IMG/VR virus record: IMGVR_UViG_3300032931_000308
Coordinates: 1-40,521 of that record
Origin: a virus
Length of the DNA stretch: 40,521 nucleotides
Direction: 5' to 3' (one strand)
In this document: positions 4,291 to 38,198 of the stretch, in pieces
Layout of the letters: every line of letters starts with the position of its first letter
Position numbering within the stretch: position 1 is the stretch's first letter
The notes under the pieces: model-generated
What the model was told of the DNA's origin: nothing
Database searches by the model: none
What the model saw: the letters and a program-made list of their open reading frames with translations, nothing else
Made by a program: the position numbers and the translations under genes

Positions 4291-4929
4291 ATGATATTTA
4301 CATTATATCAATACACCAATCGACTGAATGATAAGCGTTATATTGGGGTTACATGTTCCCCCCAAAAGAGATTTCGGCAGCATGCCAAAGGCAGTAGTGG
4401 TGCTAGATTATTTAATAAAGCAGTTCGAAAATATGGTGTTGAATCTTTCAATTTGACAATACTAGCCTTATTTGATGATGTGGCTGCAGCAGCTTATCAC
4501 GAACAGACTGCTATAAAAGCATTCAATACTCTTGCACCTGAAGGATATAACCTCACTTCTGGTGCACCTTTTACCATTTTCGGAGGCCCATTAAGTTCTA
4601 CTAGGCGAATGGCTATAACCGAAACCAATAGAAAGACATGGGCTGATACCGGAATTCGGAAAAATAGGATCGAAGGCCTCCGCAAAATTGGTGCAACAAA
4701 AGATTTCCGAGAACATTGTCGCAAATCAAAGATCGGAAACAAAAGTAAATTAGGACAAAAATATTCTGAGATTACTCGTGCAAGAATTGCCAAGGCTGAA
4801 AAATTATATTGGACTAAGGCAAAAGAAACCAACGGTGATTCTAGAATTGGGAAAAAACATTCACCCGAAACAATAACAAAAATGTCTGAAGCCCGAAAAA
4901 GATATTGGGCCGCCAGAAAGAAGGAATAA
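4291..4929 (+). CDS. GIY-YIG homing endonuclease (copy 1)
   Basis: This 212-residue protein is a free-standing homing endonuclease. The N-terminal GIY-YIG nuclease core reads LYQYTNRLNDKRYIGV with a following Arg and the HEQTAI motif. The C terminus has NUMOD3-type DNA-binding segments, for example GKKHSPETITKMSEARKRYW. It lies between the portal and protease genes with a Shine-Dalgarno GAGGTGAAAG just upstream. Its sequence is much more A+T-rich than the head genes around it, as expected for a recently inserted selfish gene. It is related to the second GIY-YIG protein at 19691-20446; the first 100 residues are clearly similar. It does not interrupt a gene and shows no intron boundaries. Confidence 0.9.
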   Translation: MIFTLYQYTNRLNDKRYIGVTCSPQKRFRQHAKGSSGARLFNKAVRKYGVESFNLTILALFDDVAAAAYHEQTAIKAFNTLAPEGYNLTSGAPFTIFGGPLSSTRRMAITETNRKTWADTGIRKNRIEGLRKIGATKDFREHCRKSKIGNKSKLGQKYSEITRARIAKAEKLYWTKAKETNGDSRIGKKHSPETITKMSEARKRYWAARKKE

Positions 4930-13239: not shown

Positions 13240-13252
13240 GGATATGTATATG
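13221..13252. promoter_or_regulatory. Tandem 15-bp operator-like repeats
   Basis: AAGGATGTGTATATG (13221-13235) and AAGGATATGTATATG (13238-13252) are direct repeats separated by 2 bp and differ at one position. They cover the -35 box and spacer of the minus-strand promoter and also include the likely Shine-Dalgarno site and start codon of the plus-strand gene at 13250. Ribbon-helix-helix repressors often bind such closely spaced tandem sites. Confidence 0.6.
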
Positions 13253-13621
13253 AGTGCAGGCTATATCTTGGATTGGAAGCCGGATCAATTCCGCAAGCAA
13301 TTACTCACCGACCTGACAGCTAACGGTGAAGTCGTTGGTAAATTTTGCGAAGAGGACGCGCGCCGTCGTCTGCTGGCCATCAATGATCCAAAATGGGGCG
13401 CGAAATACCGCTCGCAAGTAGTGGCGCGCCTTCTGACGTATGAGGTCGAGACAAAGCCCAAAGAAGTGATTATCAAAGTCGGCGTGCGGGCTTCGGGATC
13501 AGGGCGGCATCATGGCTTTTTTATCGAGTTTGGTTCGAGAACCGCGCCGGCGCATCCATTTCTGAGGCCGAGTGTATTTATGAATGCAAGCCGGATTGTT
13601 GCATTATTGTCAGGCAAATAA
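13250..13621 (+). CDS. HK97 gp10-like tail completion protein
   Basis: This 123-residue protein resembles the gp10 family, a neck protein acting where head and tail join. Recognisable features are an N-terminal helical part (ILDWKPDQFRKQLLTDL), the stretch KWGAKYRSQVV, and the C-terminal HHGFFIEFGSRTAPAHPFLRP, which is a strong family signature. The start is taken at ATG 13250 with AAGGA 8 nt upstream; an ATG two codons earlier is possible. It continues the late operon after the inverted accessory block. Confidence 0.82.
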   Translation: MSAGYILDWKPDQFRKQLLTDLTANGEVVGKFCEEDARRRLLAINDPKWGAKYRSQVVARLLTYEVETKPKEVIIKVGVRASGSGRHHGFFIEFGSRTAPAHPFLRPSVFMNASRIVALLSGK

Positions 13622-13629
13622 TAATGAAA

Positions 13630-13950
13630 TTAATTTCCAAAATAAATCATTTTGGTTTTAACGAGATCGTCCAGAAAGGCAACATGTATGGGTTCGGTGA
13701 TTTCCACTTCACCATCACGCCATTCATAAAAAGCTCGATGGGTATCACTGGATGGTTGCCGTATAAGTCCATTCAACAACTCCTGTATAATGAAAATTAC
13801 ACCAGCTACAATATCATCCCCATCAATAAACAAGGCATTCGAGAATCCAAATTCATTGTTATTTGGTGCGGTCAAAAGATCCCAAATATTGCATATTATC
13901 TTCCGATGAATAGGATCATCCGTTTCAAGTGTGATTGTAACCTTAGCCAT
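13630..13950 (-). CDS. Minus-strand accessory protein (unknown), with structured leader
   Basis: This 106-residue protein has no family that I recognise. It begins MAKVTITLETDDPIHRKII, has a hydrophobic middle (DDIVAGVIFIIQELLNGLI) and an acidic, aromatic C-terminal part. The start is chosen at 13950 because GAAAGGA precedes it; two upstream in-frame starts lie in the leader. It is A+T-rich, lies opposite to the late operon between two tail-completion genes, and has its own promoter (14089-14117) plus a 130-nt leader that contains a pseudoknot-like RNA. It is therefore a second moron in the tail region. Confidence 0.6.
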   Translation of the reverse strand: MAKVTITLETDDPIHRKIICNIWDLLTAPNNNEFGFSNALFIDGDDIVAGVIFIIQELLNGLIRQPSSDTHRAFYEWRDGEVEITEPIHVAFLDDLVKTKMIYFGN

Positions 13951-13973
13951 TTTTGCAATCCTTTCCATTGCGG

Positions 13974-14082
13974 TCAAAGAGCCGAGGCCCTACGCTTTGC
14001 CTATCCTTATCTAGGGAATGGGCGATTCGCGCAGAACCCCGGCTCTTTGACGGCAAATAAAAATCGCCTTCATTCCCTAGAT
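13974..14082 (-). ncRNA. Pseudoknotted structured RNA element, copy A (5' leader)
   Basis: On the minus strand the RNA starts at the predicted +1 with stem strand P (14082-14062), then TTTATTTGCCG holding R (14057-14052), Q (14050-14037), P' (14027-14009), R' (14001-13996) and Q' (13987-13974). P/P' pairs 11 + 7 bp with a 3/1 internal loop. Q/Q' pairs 14 bp with one G-U. R/R' is UUUGCC with GGCAAA. All three helices cross each other. Q' lies directly before the Shine-Dalgarno site of the gene at 13950. Copy B at 36990 has the same order and the same unpaired blocks with different stem sequences. Confidence 0.75.
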
Positions 14083-14088
14083 AGAGTG

Positions 14089-14117
14089 AGTATAGCAGTA
14101 TGAGCATATTAAGTCAA
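14089..14117 (-). promoter_or_regulatory. Sigma70-type promoter for RNA element A
   Basis: On the minus strand TTGACT (14117-14112), a 17-bp spacer and TATACT (14094-14089) form a strong promoter. The predicted start, about 7 nt downstream, coincides with the first base of stem P of the structured RNA. The promoter lies within the first codons of the plus-strand gene at 14100. Confidence 0.75.
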
Positions 14118-14513
14118 GCGATTTTTGATAGATTGGCAGGCGACCTCATCTTGACTGGCATGCTATCGATTTACAAGAACGCACCGGCGATTTTCACTAT
14201 CGATCCCACTCCGGGCGACGCGGCGCTGCCCTACATCGTTTCAAGTGGCGAAATTTCCCAATCGCCCTTCGACACCAAACTCTCCCGAGGACGGTCGCTC
14301 ATTCGTGACGTGCGCTGCTACGCGGACGCAGATGGCAGCGCGGTATTGATCGAGACCATTGCCGAGCGCGTGCGGGCGCTTTTGCACCGCCAGGCGTTGG
14401 TTATCGACGGCTATCAATGGGTTATATCGGACTGCGGCGGGCCTATCGTCGCAGATGAACCTGGCTCTTATGCCAGAATTATATCGTTGAGCCTTACGGC
14501 TCAGGAGGTTTGA
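14100..14513 (+). CDS. Tail terminator / completion protein (DUF3168-like)
   Basis: This 137-residue protein is placed and shaped like the tail terminator family, which caps the growing tail tube and joins it to the neck. The N-terminal helix (SQAIFDRLAGDLILTGML), the PYIVSSGEIS strand, and the DVRCYADADGSAVLIETIAERVR stretch are typical for DUF3168-like members. It lies just before the tail tube gene. A minus-strand promoter for the neighbouring moron overlaps its first codons. Confidence 0.75.
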   Translation: MSILSQAIFDRLAGDLILTGMLSIYKNAPAIFTIDPTPGDAALPYIVSSGEISQSPFDTKLSRGRSLIRDVRCYADADGSAVLIETIAERVRALLHRQALVIDGYQWVISDCGGPIVADEPGSYARIISLSLTAQEV

Positions 14514-18651: not shown

Positions 18652-19592
18652 TGGTAACGCTTACCGCAAAAGTCGCCGGGTTAACTTATAATCTTAATGA
18701 TGGCGATGAGATCCGCCTGTTGGATTACGATCTGGGCGTATCTGCGGCGCGCCGTCTCAGCCAGCGCTCACCCGCTCAACGATTGGGCGATTCTGATCTT
18801 GGCTATATGATTGACCCGCGTTACCTCGATCTCTTTTGGGCCATTCATGGCAGCGACCTGGCGGATTACCTGGCCATCCGTGAGCGGATCATGACCATTT
18901 TCCAACCACGCGATAACGACGCGGTGCAGCTCATCTTCGACTTCGACGGCCTCCAGCGGGCGGTGGATGTGAACCTGGACGGTGAGTTGCTTTGGCGCGA
19001 CCGGGTGGAGCACGTAGAGAAGGTCAGCGGGACATTCAAGGCAAGCGATCCGCGCCTTTATGATCCAGTCAACCATACAATGTTTTTCAGCCTGGAGGGG
19101 GACGGTGGAGGGGGAGGCGGCTGGCCAATTGATTGGCCGATTCCCTGGCCGATCGGTACGGATGTGCTTAACGCGGCCGTCAGCTTTCTGTATGCAGGTG
19201 GAAGCAGACTGGGCGCTCCGGAATATCCCGTGATCAGAATATTCGGCCCGATCGACAATCCGATTCTCACCAATGAGACCACCGGGGAGATTATCGACTT
19301 GAGCGCCGGGGGCGGATTATCGCTGGTTGCCCCGACTGATTGGGTAGAGATCGACCTGGCCAACCCACCGCGCCGGGATGCCAAGACTATCCGAGACCAG
19401 AACGGGAATTCAGCCGACCAATATTTAACTACCGCCTCGGACTTCGCAACCTGGCACATTGCCCCGGCGGGGGAACGGCTCCCCGATGGAAGCTATTGCA
19501 CCGGTACGAATACCATCCGCATATATGGTACTGGCGTCACATCCGATACATTGGCAACCATCAATTATTACGATAGGTACTTGGGAGCATGA
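18651..19592 (+). CDS. Distal tail protein (Dit-like)
   Basis: This 313-residue protein follows the tape measure gene and starts with an A-overlap on its stop codon (TAATG). The N-terminal half has the Dit-type beta sandwich with QRSPAQRLGDSDLGY, YLAIRERIMTIFQP and DVNLDGELLWRDRVEHVEKV, then a Gly-rich hinge (GDGGGGGGW), then a C-terminal galectin-like part with YPVIRIFGPIDNP and STEP-like strands ending TINYYDRYLGA. Dit proteins form the hub linking the tube to the receptor-binding apparatus. Confidence 0.8.
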   Translation: MVTLTAKVAGLTYNLNDGDEIRLLDYDLGVSAARRLSQRSPAQRLGDSDLGYMIDPRYLDLFWAIHGSDLADYLAIRERIMTIFQPRDNDAVQLIFDFDGLQRAVDVNLDGELLWRDRVEHVEKVSGTFKASDPRLYDPVNHTMFFSLEGDGGGGGGWPIDWPIPWPIGTDVLNAAVSFLYAGGSRLGAPEYPVIRIFGPIDNPILTNETTGEIIDLSAGGGLSLVAPTDWVEIDLANPPRRDAKTIRDQNGNSADQYLTTASDFATWHIAPAGERLPDGSYCTGTNTIRIYGTGVTSDTLATINYYDRYLGA

Positions 19593-19629
19593 TGATCACT
19601 TATACGTGGTACAATTGTTCTAATAAGAT

Positions 19630-19685
19630 GACCCCGCACTGCGTAAACAGTCGGGGTCGTGGCCGACAAACTACAAAGGAGTTTG
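19630..19685 (+). promoter_or_regulatory. Two-hairpin leader of the GIY-YIG gene
   Basis: GACCCCG-C-ACTG (19630-19641) pairs with CAGT-CGGGGTC (19648-19658) to form an 11-bp stem with one bulge. A second hairpin pairs CAAACT (19667-19672) with AGTTTG (19680-19685), with most of the Shine-Dalgarno AAGGAG in the loop and stem. The second hairpin would partly hide the ribosome site of the homing nuclease gene, keeping translation low. Confidence 0.55.
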
Positions 19686-19690
19686 CGACA

Positions 19691-20446
19691 ATGAGTATTA
19701 TAACCCCAAACGTATTTACTTTATATCAATATACCAATCGCTTGAATGGCAAGCGTTATATTGGTGTGACTAATGATCCCGCGCGGCGAGCAATGGAGCA
19801 CGCCAGAGGGCATGGTTGGTCAGGTAGTATATTCCATGTTGCTATAAAAAAGTACGGCATCGAAGTATTCGACTATAAGGTCCTGGGGGTTTTCGACGAC
19901 GCGGGGGTGGCCGCTTATCACGAGCAAGCTGCTATATTGAAGTTCGGTACTCTTTCGCCAGGTGGCTATAATCTGAGAGCTGGTGCGCCTGGCACTGCTT
20001 ACAGTGGGTCACAGACTGATTTAAGCCGTGCCAAGATAAGCGCCTCACACAAGGGCAGGCAGAAAAGTCCTGAGCATCTTGCCAAAATAGGAGCTGCAAT
20101 AAAAGCATCTCCAGCCCATAAAGCGGCGATGGCTTCCCCAGAAGTGAAAGAAAGATTAAGAGCTTGCGCTATAGGAAAAAGATATCATCTTGGTTTCAAA
20201 CATAACGCAGAGACACGCGCGAAGATGAGCGCCGCTCGCAAGAAACGAATAATCACATTAGCAACGCGGAAAAAGATGTCTGATGCAATGATGGGCAATA
20301 AGTACGCATTAGGCTGCAAACAGACTGCCAAAAGTATTGCCAAGCGTGTTAAAGCCAATACGGGTCAGAAGCGTACACCTGAAACGCGAGCCAAAATGAG
20401 TGCAGCAGCAAAAGCAAGAGTAGCGCGCAAAGCACGGAAGGAGTAA
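19691..20446 (+). CDS. GIY-YIG homing endonuclease (copy 2)
   Basis: This 251-residue protein has the same N-terminal nuclease core as the one at 4291: LYQYTNRLNGKRYIGVTNDP, then a conserved AMEHARGHGW arm, YHEQAAILKFGTL and GYNLRAGAPG. The C-terminal half contains at least four NUMOD3-like repeats, for example GRQKSPEHLAKI, GFKHNAETRAKMSAARKKR and GQKRTPETRAKMSAAAKAR. The start at 19691 is supported by AAGGAG; earlier in-frame starts lie in the hairpin leader. It sits between distal tail and lectin-like tail genes and interrupts neither. It is a selfish mobile gene. Confidence 0.9.
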   Translation: MSIITPNVFTLYQYTNRLNGKRYIGVTNDPARRAMEHARGHGWSGSIFHVAIKKYGIEVFDYKVLGVFDDAGVAAYHEQAAILKFGTLSPGGYNLRAGAPGTAYSGSQTDLSRAKISASHKGRQKSPEHLAKIGAAIKASPAHKAAMASPEVKERLRACAIGKRYHLGFKHNAETRAKMSAARKKRIITLATRKKMSDAMMGNKYALGCKQTAKSIAKRVKANTGQKRTPETRAKMSAAAKARVARKARKE

Positions 20447-36776: not shown

Positions 36777-36966
36777 CCCGTGTACCAGTTGGAGCCAGCT
36801 CGCCCACGTGCTCCCAGTGGAACAGCGCGAGCAGCTGGCGGCGATCATCCTGGCGAAGATACAAACTGGATGGGGCTGCATCGAATTAATTATTAAAGAC
36901 CATCATATTTTAGAATTTCGTAATACCGATTTCGTACCCGCAATAAAACCTAAGGTTGATCCATAG
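36763..36966 (+). CDS. Hypothetical protein
   Basis: This 67-residue protein reads MQPPNPCTSWSQLAHVLPVE, then QREQLAAIILAKIQTGWGCI and a basic, Ile-rich end. No family is recognised. It is the last gene of the early run before the pseudoknot RNA. The promoter for that RNA overlaps its stop codon. Confidence 0.45.
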   Translation: MQPPNPCTSWSQLAHVLPVEQREQLAAIILAKIQTGWGCIELIIKDHHILEFRNTDFVPAIKPKVDP

Positions 36967-36983
36967 GAGCTTAATGGTATAAT
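36956..36983 (+). promoter_or_regulatory. Sigma70-type promoter for RNA element B
   Basis: TTGATC (36956-36961), a 16-bp spacer and a perfect TATAAT (36978-36983) form the promoter. The predicted start, about 7 nt downstream, is 36990, the first base of stem P of RNA element B. Copy A has the same promoter-to-stem spacing. Confidence 0.75.
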
Positions 36984-36989
36984 ATCCCC

Positions 36990-37088
36990 GTCACAGATAC
37001 GCGGCGCTTTTTATTTGCCGATAAAGTCCCGTCATTTTGCGAAGCGTCCGTATCTGTGACAAGAACTGGCAAACGCAAGATGACGGGA
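36990..37088 (+). ncRNA. Pseudoknotted structured RNA element, copy B
   Basis: Order of parts: P strand GTCACAGATACG (36990-37001) with CGCTT (about 37005-37009), the block TTTATTTGCCG (37010-37020) holding R, Q CCCGTCATTTTGCG (37028-37041), P' (AAGCG to CTGTGAC, 37042-37060), AAGAACT-GGCAAA with R', and Q' CGCAAGATGACGGG (37075-37088). P pairs 12 + 5 bp with an internal loop; Q pairs 14 bp with one G-U; R is TTTGCC with GGCAAA. Compared with copy A the unpaired blocks are the same and the stems are different in sequence. It precedes pentamer array 3 and the cassette at 37174. Confidence 0.75.
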
Positions 37089-37100
37089 TTATATTTTATA

Positions 37101-37170
37101 ATGGCGTGGCGTGGCGTGGCGGGGCTGGGCTGGGCTGGGCTGGGCCGGGCTGGGCAAGGCAAGGCAAGGT
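37101..37170. repeat. Pentamer array 3 (NNGGC on plus strand)
   Basis: Fourteen perfect-phase units: ATGGC, GTGGC x3, GGGGC, TGGGC x4, CGGGC, TGGGC, AAGGC x2 and AAGGT. The last unit is followed by TAG-ATG of the GIY-YIG gene, so AAGG of the array doubles as its Shine-Dalgarno site. Several GGG runs spaced by CT make a G-quadruplex possible. Confidence 0.9.
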
Positions 37171-37173
37171 TAG

Positions 37174-37596
37174 ATGATCTACATCATCAATGAAACTGGT
37201 ACAGATTTATACAAGATAGGCTTTACTGATAGGCCAATCGAAAAACGTTTAGCATCCCTTCAGATAGGATGTGCTAATCAACTAACAGTAACCGCAACCT
37301 TAGATGGTGATCAACTACGCGAAGATGAATTACATCGGCGTTATTGGCAATACCACGTAAAAGGCGAATGGTTCAAATTAGATGCAGACACATTAGAAAG
37401 GATCATAATAGATGGACACCGATTTTTATCACATCAAGGTTCAATGCAAGGGAATTCGCCCTATGATGTTCGACCGATATGCCGGGGACAATTCCACCCA
37501 ACTTCCAATAGCGGAGAAAATGTATCTGACCGAAGATCGCCAACTGATCATGCCCGCGATCAACGTCCTTTCATTGCTGGCAGCCGAGAACGGTAA
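37174..37596 (+). CDS. GIY-YIG (MUG113/T5orf172-like) nuclease in the plus-strand cassette
   Basis: This 140-residue ORF has a short GIY-YIG-type domain: MIYIINETGTDLYKIGFTDR, then IEKRLASLQIGCANQLTVTA and ELHRRYWQYHVKGEWFKLD, typical of the MUG113/T5orf172 group. The domain ends near residue 80. The remaining 60 codons run out of frame through the start of the next gene (185 nt overlap) and look like a read-through tail. The HNH gene of the minus-strand cassette shows the same kind of overlap. The role may be DNA cleavage for cassette mobility. Confidence 0.75.
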   Translation: MIYIINETGTDLYKIGFTDRPIEKRLASLQIGCANQLTVTATLDGDQLREDELHRRYWQYHVKGEWFKLDADTLERIIIDGHRFLSHQGSMQGNSPYDVRPICRGQFHPTSNSGENVSDRRSPTDHARDQRPFIAGSRER

Positions 37597-37963
37597 AAGT
37601 GTTTGCCGTCAATTCTTCGGGAAGAATGGTAAAACGATTGCCCTGGGAATTTCGTCTTACTGTAATATCACCCCATTTGAAATTCCCATTATGGATGACA
37701 ACGGGCCGATTTTCTTCAAAGACTGGAATAAGCAAATTAGCGTGCATAAAGCCGTTGCACGTTTAGCAAAAGGAATACCGAACCCGAAAGAGCGCCCATT
37801 GCTGGCATTACCCTGGTATCTATCATTTGAGTTTGAATATCAGGAAAACAAATATTGCACGCTGGAGAACCTTCGCCAGGCTATAACGATGGGCGGTATT
37901 CTAGGTATGGGAACATTCCGCCCTTTTTTCGGGCGTTATGAAGTGACGAAGTTTGAATATTAG
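37412..37963 (+). CDS. Accessory protein with PMMF and RPFFGRY motifs (family A member)
   Basis: This 183-residue protein resembles the protein at 12185-12763: an N-terminal KVQCKGIRPMMF strand, a middle IMPAINVLSLLAAENGK, a WYLSFEFEYQEN strand and a C-terminal GGILGMGTFRPFFGRYEV. Identity is low but the landmarks match in order and spacing. The Gly-rich C-terminal loop recalls RAMP proteins; this is speculation, and no CRISPR array is present. The start has AGAAAGGA upstream. It is followed at once by pentamer array 4 and then a terminator. Confidence 0.68.
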   Translation: MDTDFYHIKVQCKGIRPMMFDRYAGDNSTQLPIAEKMYLTEDRQLIMPAINVLSLLAAENGKSVCRQFFGKNGKTIALGISSYCNITPFEIPIMDDNGPIFFKDWNKQISVHKAVARLAKGIPNPKERPLLALPWYLSFEFEYQENKYCTLENLRQAITMGGILGMGTFRPFFGRYEVTKFEY

Positions 37964-38097
37964 GGCGTGGCCGGGCACGGCTAGGAGGGGCCGGGTCAGG
38001 CAAGGCGCGGCGTCGTCAGGCGGTGCGAGGCACTGCCGGGCCGGGCAATGCTCGGCGGGGCACAGCGGGGCGCGGCAAGGAATGGCACGGCAAGGAC
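37964..38097. repeat. Pentamer array 4 (GGCNN on plus strand)
   Basis: About 27 units read GGCNN on the plus strand (GGCGT, GGCCG, GGCAC, GGCTA and so on), starting directly after the TAG stop of the gene before. A few units have lost one G (TGCGA, TGCTC). The array ends 2 nt before a terminator hairpin at 38100, so it would be the transcribed 3' end of the cassette. Confidence 0.88.
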
Positions 38098-38099
38098 AT

Positions 38100-38130
38100 A
38101 AAAGCCCCAGCTTTACGCCGGGGCTTTTAT
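38100..38130. terminator. Rho-independent terminator after the plus-strand cassette
   Basis: AAAAGCCCC (38100-38108) pairs with GGGGCTTTT (38120-38128). The A-run and T-run allow function in both directions. It separates the accessory cassette from the lysis genes. Confidence 0.8.
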
Positions 38131-38198
38131 TGGGCTTGAGGTCTTGTCTGCGAATTCATGAATTATACCACGGCGCGGCTGGCGAGGGTTATACTTAG

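Follow-up and report, generated by a model that had tools for sequence, protein, structure and literature searches.

The viral DNA analysed here (the window: all 40,521 nucleotides of IMG/VR record IMGVR_UViG_3300032931_000308) carries two copies of a previously undescribed structured RNA of about 105 bases, which is located at the message start of small mobile gene cassettes and is present in at least three distinct phages. Both window copies, A on the minus strand and B on the plus strand, have three crossing helices in the order P-R-Q-P'-R'-Q'. Six copies are recognised on three distinct contigs, two in the window, one (C) on another contig and three (D, E and F) on a third; this class of P-R-Q leader, and its position at the predicted +1 of a promoter, are well supported.

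The joint motif TTTGCCG-N30-60-AAGNANNGGCAAA matches the window at two sites, against zero matches in 100 shuffles, which bears out the two elements that an earlier note on this DNA had placed at these sites with this plan (Table 1). Several dimensions have been revised. Q, which the note took to be 14 bp in each copy, does pair in both, and comprises 22 bp in A and 21 columns with one mismatch in B; P likewise pairs, with 12+6 bp (A) and 12+7 bp (B) and a bulge of 1-2 nt in place of the proposed 11+7 and 12+5 bp; and copy B ends near 37094, not at 37088. The stems change on both sides together, as claimed, but they are not wholly unrelated between the copies, as 13 of 21 bases are identical in the Q strands of A and B.

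Table 1. Features of the two leader copies in the window and of the genes and cassette associated with them (CM R1, covariance model).
Feature	Position	Strand	Remark
Copy B promoter, TTGATC-16-TATAAT, extended -10 TG	36956..36983	+	10/12 match
Copy B, whole structured leader RNA	36990..37094	+	CM R1 102.6 bits (in training set)
Copy B, P 5' strand: GTCACAGATACG, bulge C, GGCGCTT	36990..37009	+	12+7 bp, one G-U
Copy B, TTTA between P 5' strand and R 5' strand
Copy B, R 5' strand TTTGCC	37014..37019	+	covaries in copy E
Copy B, single G between R 5' strand and Q 5' strand
Copy B, Q 5' strand, 21 nt	37021..37041	+	20/21 positions pair
Copy B, P 3' strand: AAGCGTC-CGTATCTGTGAC	37042..37060	+
Copy B, AAG-N4 linker, AAGAACT	37061..37067	+	AAG invariant across six copies
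Copy B, R 3' strand GGCAAA	37068..37073	+
Copy B, Q 3' strand, 21 nt	37074..37094	+
G-rich tract of 5-base repeats separating leader B from its ORF	37102..37172	+
ORF after copy B, MUG113/T5orf172 (GIY-YIG type) domain	37174..37596	+	Pfam PF13455 E=5.6e-13, PF10544 E=2.5e-7
Copy A promoter, TTGACT-17-TATACT, extended -10 TG	14089..14117	-	10/12 match
Copy A, whole structured leader RNA	13974..14082	-	CM R1 110.6 bits (in training set)
Copy A, P 5' strand: ATCTAGGGAATG, bulge AA, GGCGAT	14063..14082	-	12+6 bp
Copy A, R 5' strand TTTGCC	14052..14057	-
Copy A, Q 5' strand, 22 nt	14029..14050	-	22/22 pair
Copy A, P 3' strand	14009..14026	-
Copy A, R 3' strand GGCAAA	13996..14001	-
Copy A, Q 3' strand	13974..13995	-
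ORF after copy A, 106 aa	13630..13950	-	no family match
Inserted cassette carrying copy A, ~480-bp	13622..14099	-	missing in close relatives L190, L149, L153, L154

Copy C (contig IMGVR_UViG_3300044712_000977) was recovered by a relaxed motif scan of viral contigs followed by a test of P and Q pairing, copy D (contig IMGVR_UViG_3300046488_000110) by a scan anchored on the -10 box, and copy E, in the same contig as D, by a fuzzy motif plus pairing. Copy F, also in that contig, was found with a covariance model trained on A, B and C. Further copies with covarying stems, for which the earlier note had asked, do exist. Copies E and F match none of the exact motifs used; the covariance-model E-values are 5e-13 for D, 4e-9 for E and 2e-10 for F, none of which was in the training set. 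The three phages have few, weakly similar proteins in common and are otherwise distinct. Exact-motif scans of viral and genome contigs returned mostly chance matches and, among the matches listed, only C and D were real as judged by P/Q pairing. A scan free of both R and the U-rich block (P', AAG or AGG, and Q) over 4.34 Mb, both strands, gave 27 places, and wherever P is preceded by at least 5/6 of a -10 box, the place is one of the six copies. When 50 virus records, most of them relatives of the window phage by their portal, were searched with the covariance model, only C was found, and about 1,500 sampled bacterial genomes from five phylum draws yielded no copy; the scanned viral contigs may contain further ones. 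A P/Q-like arrangement at L012 11056 (+) was rejected as a further copy: it is followed by a T-run and resembles a terminator with a chance flanking repeat.

The proposal of a structured RNA family with covarying stems is supported by the six copies, in which P, Q and, in copy E, R covary. Q is 18-22 bp long; among its 17 aligned pairs, 97% of the cells are standard and 11 pairs have changed on both sides. Its covariation score is 0.682, compared with 0.274 in shuffles and at most 0.22 when the alignment is slid; not one of 500 shuffles is as high on either paired cells or covariation, and a slide by one column lowers pairing to about 50%. Each copy forms between 12 and 19 P pairs, every one of them standard, and P is interrupted by a bulge or an internal loop; its outer strands have 5 of 12 bases in common between A and B, other comparisons ranging from 2 of 8 up to identity (D and E). 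R had been described as an invariant TTTGCC/GGCAAA helix, which holds for five copies; in E it is TTTCCG/CGGAAA at the same positions, with two of the six pairs changed, both sides together. Because its covariation comes from that single copy, R is less certain than P and Q.

In all six copies P begins with a purine, and the -10 box (TATAAT, TATACT or TAGAAT) ends 6 nt upstream of that base; A and B have a -35 box as well (Table 1). Hence the RNA starts at the transcription start predicted from the sequence, and the earlier placement of P at the predicted +1 of a sigma70 promoter holds throughout. Every copy is followed by an ORF with an ATG, 111-184 nt from the start of P, and the distance from Q to that ATG is 79 nt in B, 23 nt in A and 10-16 nt in C to F (10-11 nt in D to F).

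The downstream genes belong to different families. The ORF after copy E, like that after B, is of the MUG113/T5orf172 GIY-YIG type, F is followed by an HNH endonuclease and C by a C5 cytosine methyltransferase; the ORF after D is GIY-YIG-like by motif only (LYVL...LYIG, E...PPLN), with no profile match. Nuclease-like genes thus follow four of the six copies, D being counted by motif reading only. Structure models of the copy A and D proteins have pLDDT below 40. The genes that flank cassette A (13244-13621 and 14100-14513) abut or overlap in the four relatives that lack it; this empty site is seen for a cassette whose ORF is no recognised nuclease, and nuclease domains are seen for other copies (B, E and F). 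The leader is missing from all ten INPHARED loci with related GIY-YIG or HNH genes, and therefore does not go with those gene families in general.

Some further features of these regions are recorded here. G-rich arrays of 5-base GGCNN units lie on either side of the copy B gene pair (37102-37172 and 37964-38095), and after the second array comes a hairpin with a T-run (about 38098-38133). Another ORF, at 37412-37963, shares part of the span of the GIY-YIG ORF in a different frame; it matches phrog_4652, whose function is unknown. Just past the stop of the GIY-YIG ORF, positions 37601-37611 (TTTGCCGTCAA) equal 11 bases of copy A across R and Q, and TTTGCC also occurs 11 nt past the copy A ORF. 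Recognition of an insertion site by R, for which the TTTGCC past the ORFs of A and B was considered, was rejected: the sequence is absent at that place in C to F, and there is no TTTCCG near E. Direct repeats flanking the cassettes were likewise discarded, their scores being within the shuffle range; this applies also to a near-direct repeat at the copy C methyltransferase cassette (G050 contig, L481; GCATAAAA..AATTTTGT, 19 of 23 bases). Elsewhere in the window, the proteins encoded at 4291-4929 and 19589-20446 are both about 38% identical to one protein of phage G071 (35933-36619) and, judged by this similarity, may be paralogues.

The earlier note left a choice between a ribozyme, a regulatory leader and a small RNA; as an ORF follows every copy, the leader is favoured over the other two. 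Folding suggests how such a leader might work. In a nested energy model, P forms in all six copies when the 5' part is folded alone, and the predicted minimum of the full element contains Q, again in all six; the Q-forced fold is better than the P-forced one by 1.6-12.5 kcal/mol, in models that cannot score a pseudoknot of P and Q, which could be the true final state. On both strands, only 0-2 nt separate R from Q. Since joints of this length cannot span a 20-bp helix, pseudoknot geometry and loop lengths indicate that R and full-length Q should be mutually exclusive, and it is probable that the three helices do not all exist at the same time; P and Q could in principle form one long pseudoknot.

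We tentatively propose, at somewhat less than an even chance, that the element is a cis-acting 5' leader that refolds from P, together with R, to Q and so limits expression of the mobile cassette. The RNA would start at the +1 of its dedicated sigma70 promoter and, in most copies, would end just before the ribosome-binding site (RBS) of a short mobile phage gene cassette, the gene usually being a putative homing-type endonuclease. P would form as soon as it is transcribed and, with R, would hold an early fold that leaves the 3' strand of Q unpaired and the start region accessible; Q, the more stable helix in the nested model, would then displace R and P, and a Q helix of about 21 bp set against the RBS would close or slow translation, so that the cassette gene would be made only in a limited burst. 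The predicted openness of the start region in D to F is 0.77-0.83 in the P fold vs 0.40-0.57 in the Q fold; accessibility is unchanged in B and C, and at the AUG of A it changes the other way. The greater distance from Q to the ATG in B (79 nt) and A (23 nt) also speaks against the proposal. The translational switch is accordingly a hypothesis fitted to three leaders (D, E and F), and both the refolding in the cell and its effect on translation are inferred.

An unlikely but serious competitor is a static leader, in which P and Q would combine into one long H-type pseudoknot, either closing off the 5' end of the mRNA against 5' decay or acting as a receptor for a ligand, a host protein or RNase III, with the U-rich loop, AAG and the R strands making loop contacts. 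Such an arrangement is consistent with the retention of these loop blocks while the stem sequences vary, with the start of P exactly at the predicted +1 in all copies, and with one U.G wobble in Q that is kept in all six. The R strands, however, covary in E, which argues for pairing over plain loop sequence; in copy F only 9 nt would have to span the 21-bp Q, which is tight; and a nascent RNA still tied to the polymerase could hardly wind Q by two turns through a P loop that is already closed.

We regard as improbable a trans-acting small RNA that travels with the cassettes and is freed from the mRNA, for example by RNase III, to act on phage or host targets. Its own promoter and a compact fold of about 105 nt in all copies would suit such a molecule, but the start codon that follows within 111-184 nt of the RNA start in every copy points to a leader, for A and B a scan for intrinsic terminators gave none in the stretch that separates leader from ORF, and the divergence of the stem sequences leaves no common target-pairing region. 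A DNA-level site for cassette movement, folded as a single strand like an integron attC, is very improbable: the structure indeed persists as the sequence changes, a single ORF accompanies each copy, cassette A has been inserted, and Q of copy C has RYYYAAC/GTTRRRY-like ends, yet where attC is a nested hairpin with RYYYAAC and GTTRRRY cores, the present element is pseudoknotted with no single nested hairpin, the core-site bases occur only in C (AAC/GTT is missing at that place in the other copies), and the -10 box at a fixed distance in all six points to transcription. A self-cleaving ribozyme, finally, is the least probable of all, since crossing helices and conserved loop bases as in small ribozymes are set against a scarcity of invariant unpaired bases (AAG, and the U-run in part), a start at +1 that leaves nothing 5' of P to remove, and no match to an Rfam ribozyme.

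The claim that no described class has this helix order agrees with the Rfam comparison, which gave no matching family. Rfam 15 has no matches on the window, and at E<=10 there is nothing over A, B, C and F, and over D and E there are sub-threshold miRNA-type matches (E=0.51 and 1.7) with scores about a quarter of the cut-off. A literature search of open-licence papers found no description of a P-R-Q leader RNA. Several known systems are comparable in part. HEARO, or omega RNA, is an HNH-associated structured RNA beside a nuclease gene in mobile DNA and guides one nuclease family; the P-R-Q leader, in contrast, precedes nucleases of different families and has no Rfam match. In the leader of the MS2 maturation-protein gene, slow RNA refolding sets a transient window for translation; the logic proposed here is alike, in an unrelated RNA with a different fold, MS2 being an RNA phage. 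Metastable-to-stable mRNA folding is also known from hok, a type I toxin gene. In the type I toxin mRNA aapA1, an early 5' structure is replaced by a more stable fold that controls translation (PMC6733600), as is proposed here; type I systems, however, use an antisense RNA and a toxin peptide, neither of which is seen with this compact 105-nt leader.

The closest functional parallel may lie in the homing endonuclease genes of T4-type phages. There, leader RNA structure holds back the expression of I-TevI, I-TevII, I-TevIII, segB, Aeh1 mobE and seg43, and in the case of seg43 (Aeromonas phage 25) the hairpin is very stable and immediately precedes the RBS (PMC2988022). In both settings the RNA structure is found at the RBS or just ahead of it, the genes are mobile phage genes for GIY-YIG or HNH endonucleases, and the proposed role is to time the translation of the nuclease (PMC2988022). 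Each T4-type structure is one hairpin; most of them hide the RBS in read-through transcripts, and transcripts from the late promoter lack them (PMC2988022). The P-R-Q leader, by contrast, starts at its own promoter, has three mutually crossing helices and common loop blocks, and occurs in distinct phages; instead of one hairpin with the RBS in its stem, Q ends 10-79 nt before the ATG and does not include the RBS. The job may thus be the same and the RNA different.

In a broader and improbable reading, the leader would be a shared, exchangeable part of a class of selfish phage cassettes, its three crossing helices used in turn or together (with Q bent or partly open), and unrelated nuclease and methyltransferase genes would depend on it for their spread or control. 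The P-R-Q class would count as a new regulatory module in phage mobile elements. It lets one test how selfish nuclease cassettes keep their expression harmless to the carrier, and would offer a compact natural system in which to study how crossing helices that exclude one another refold.
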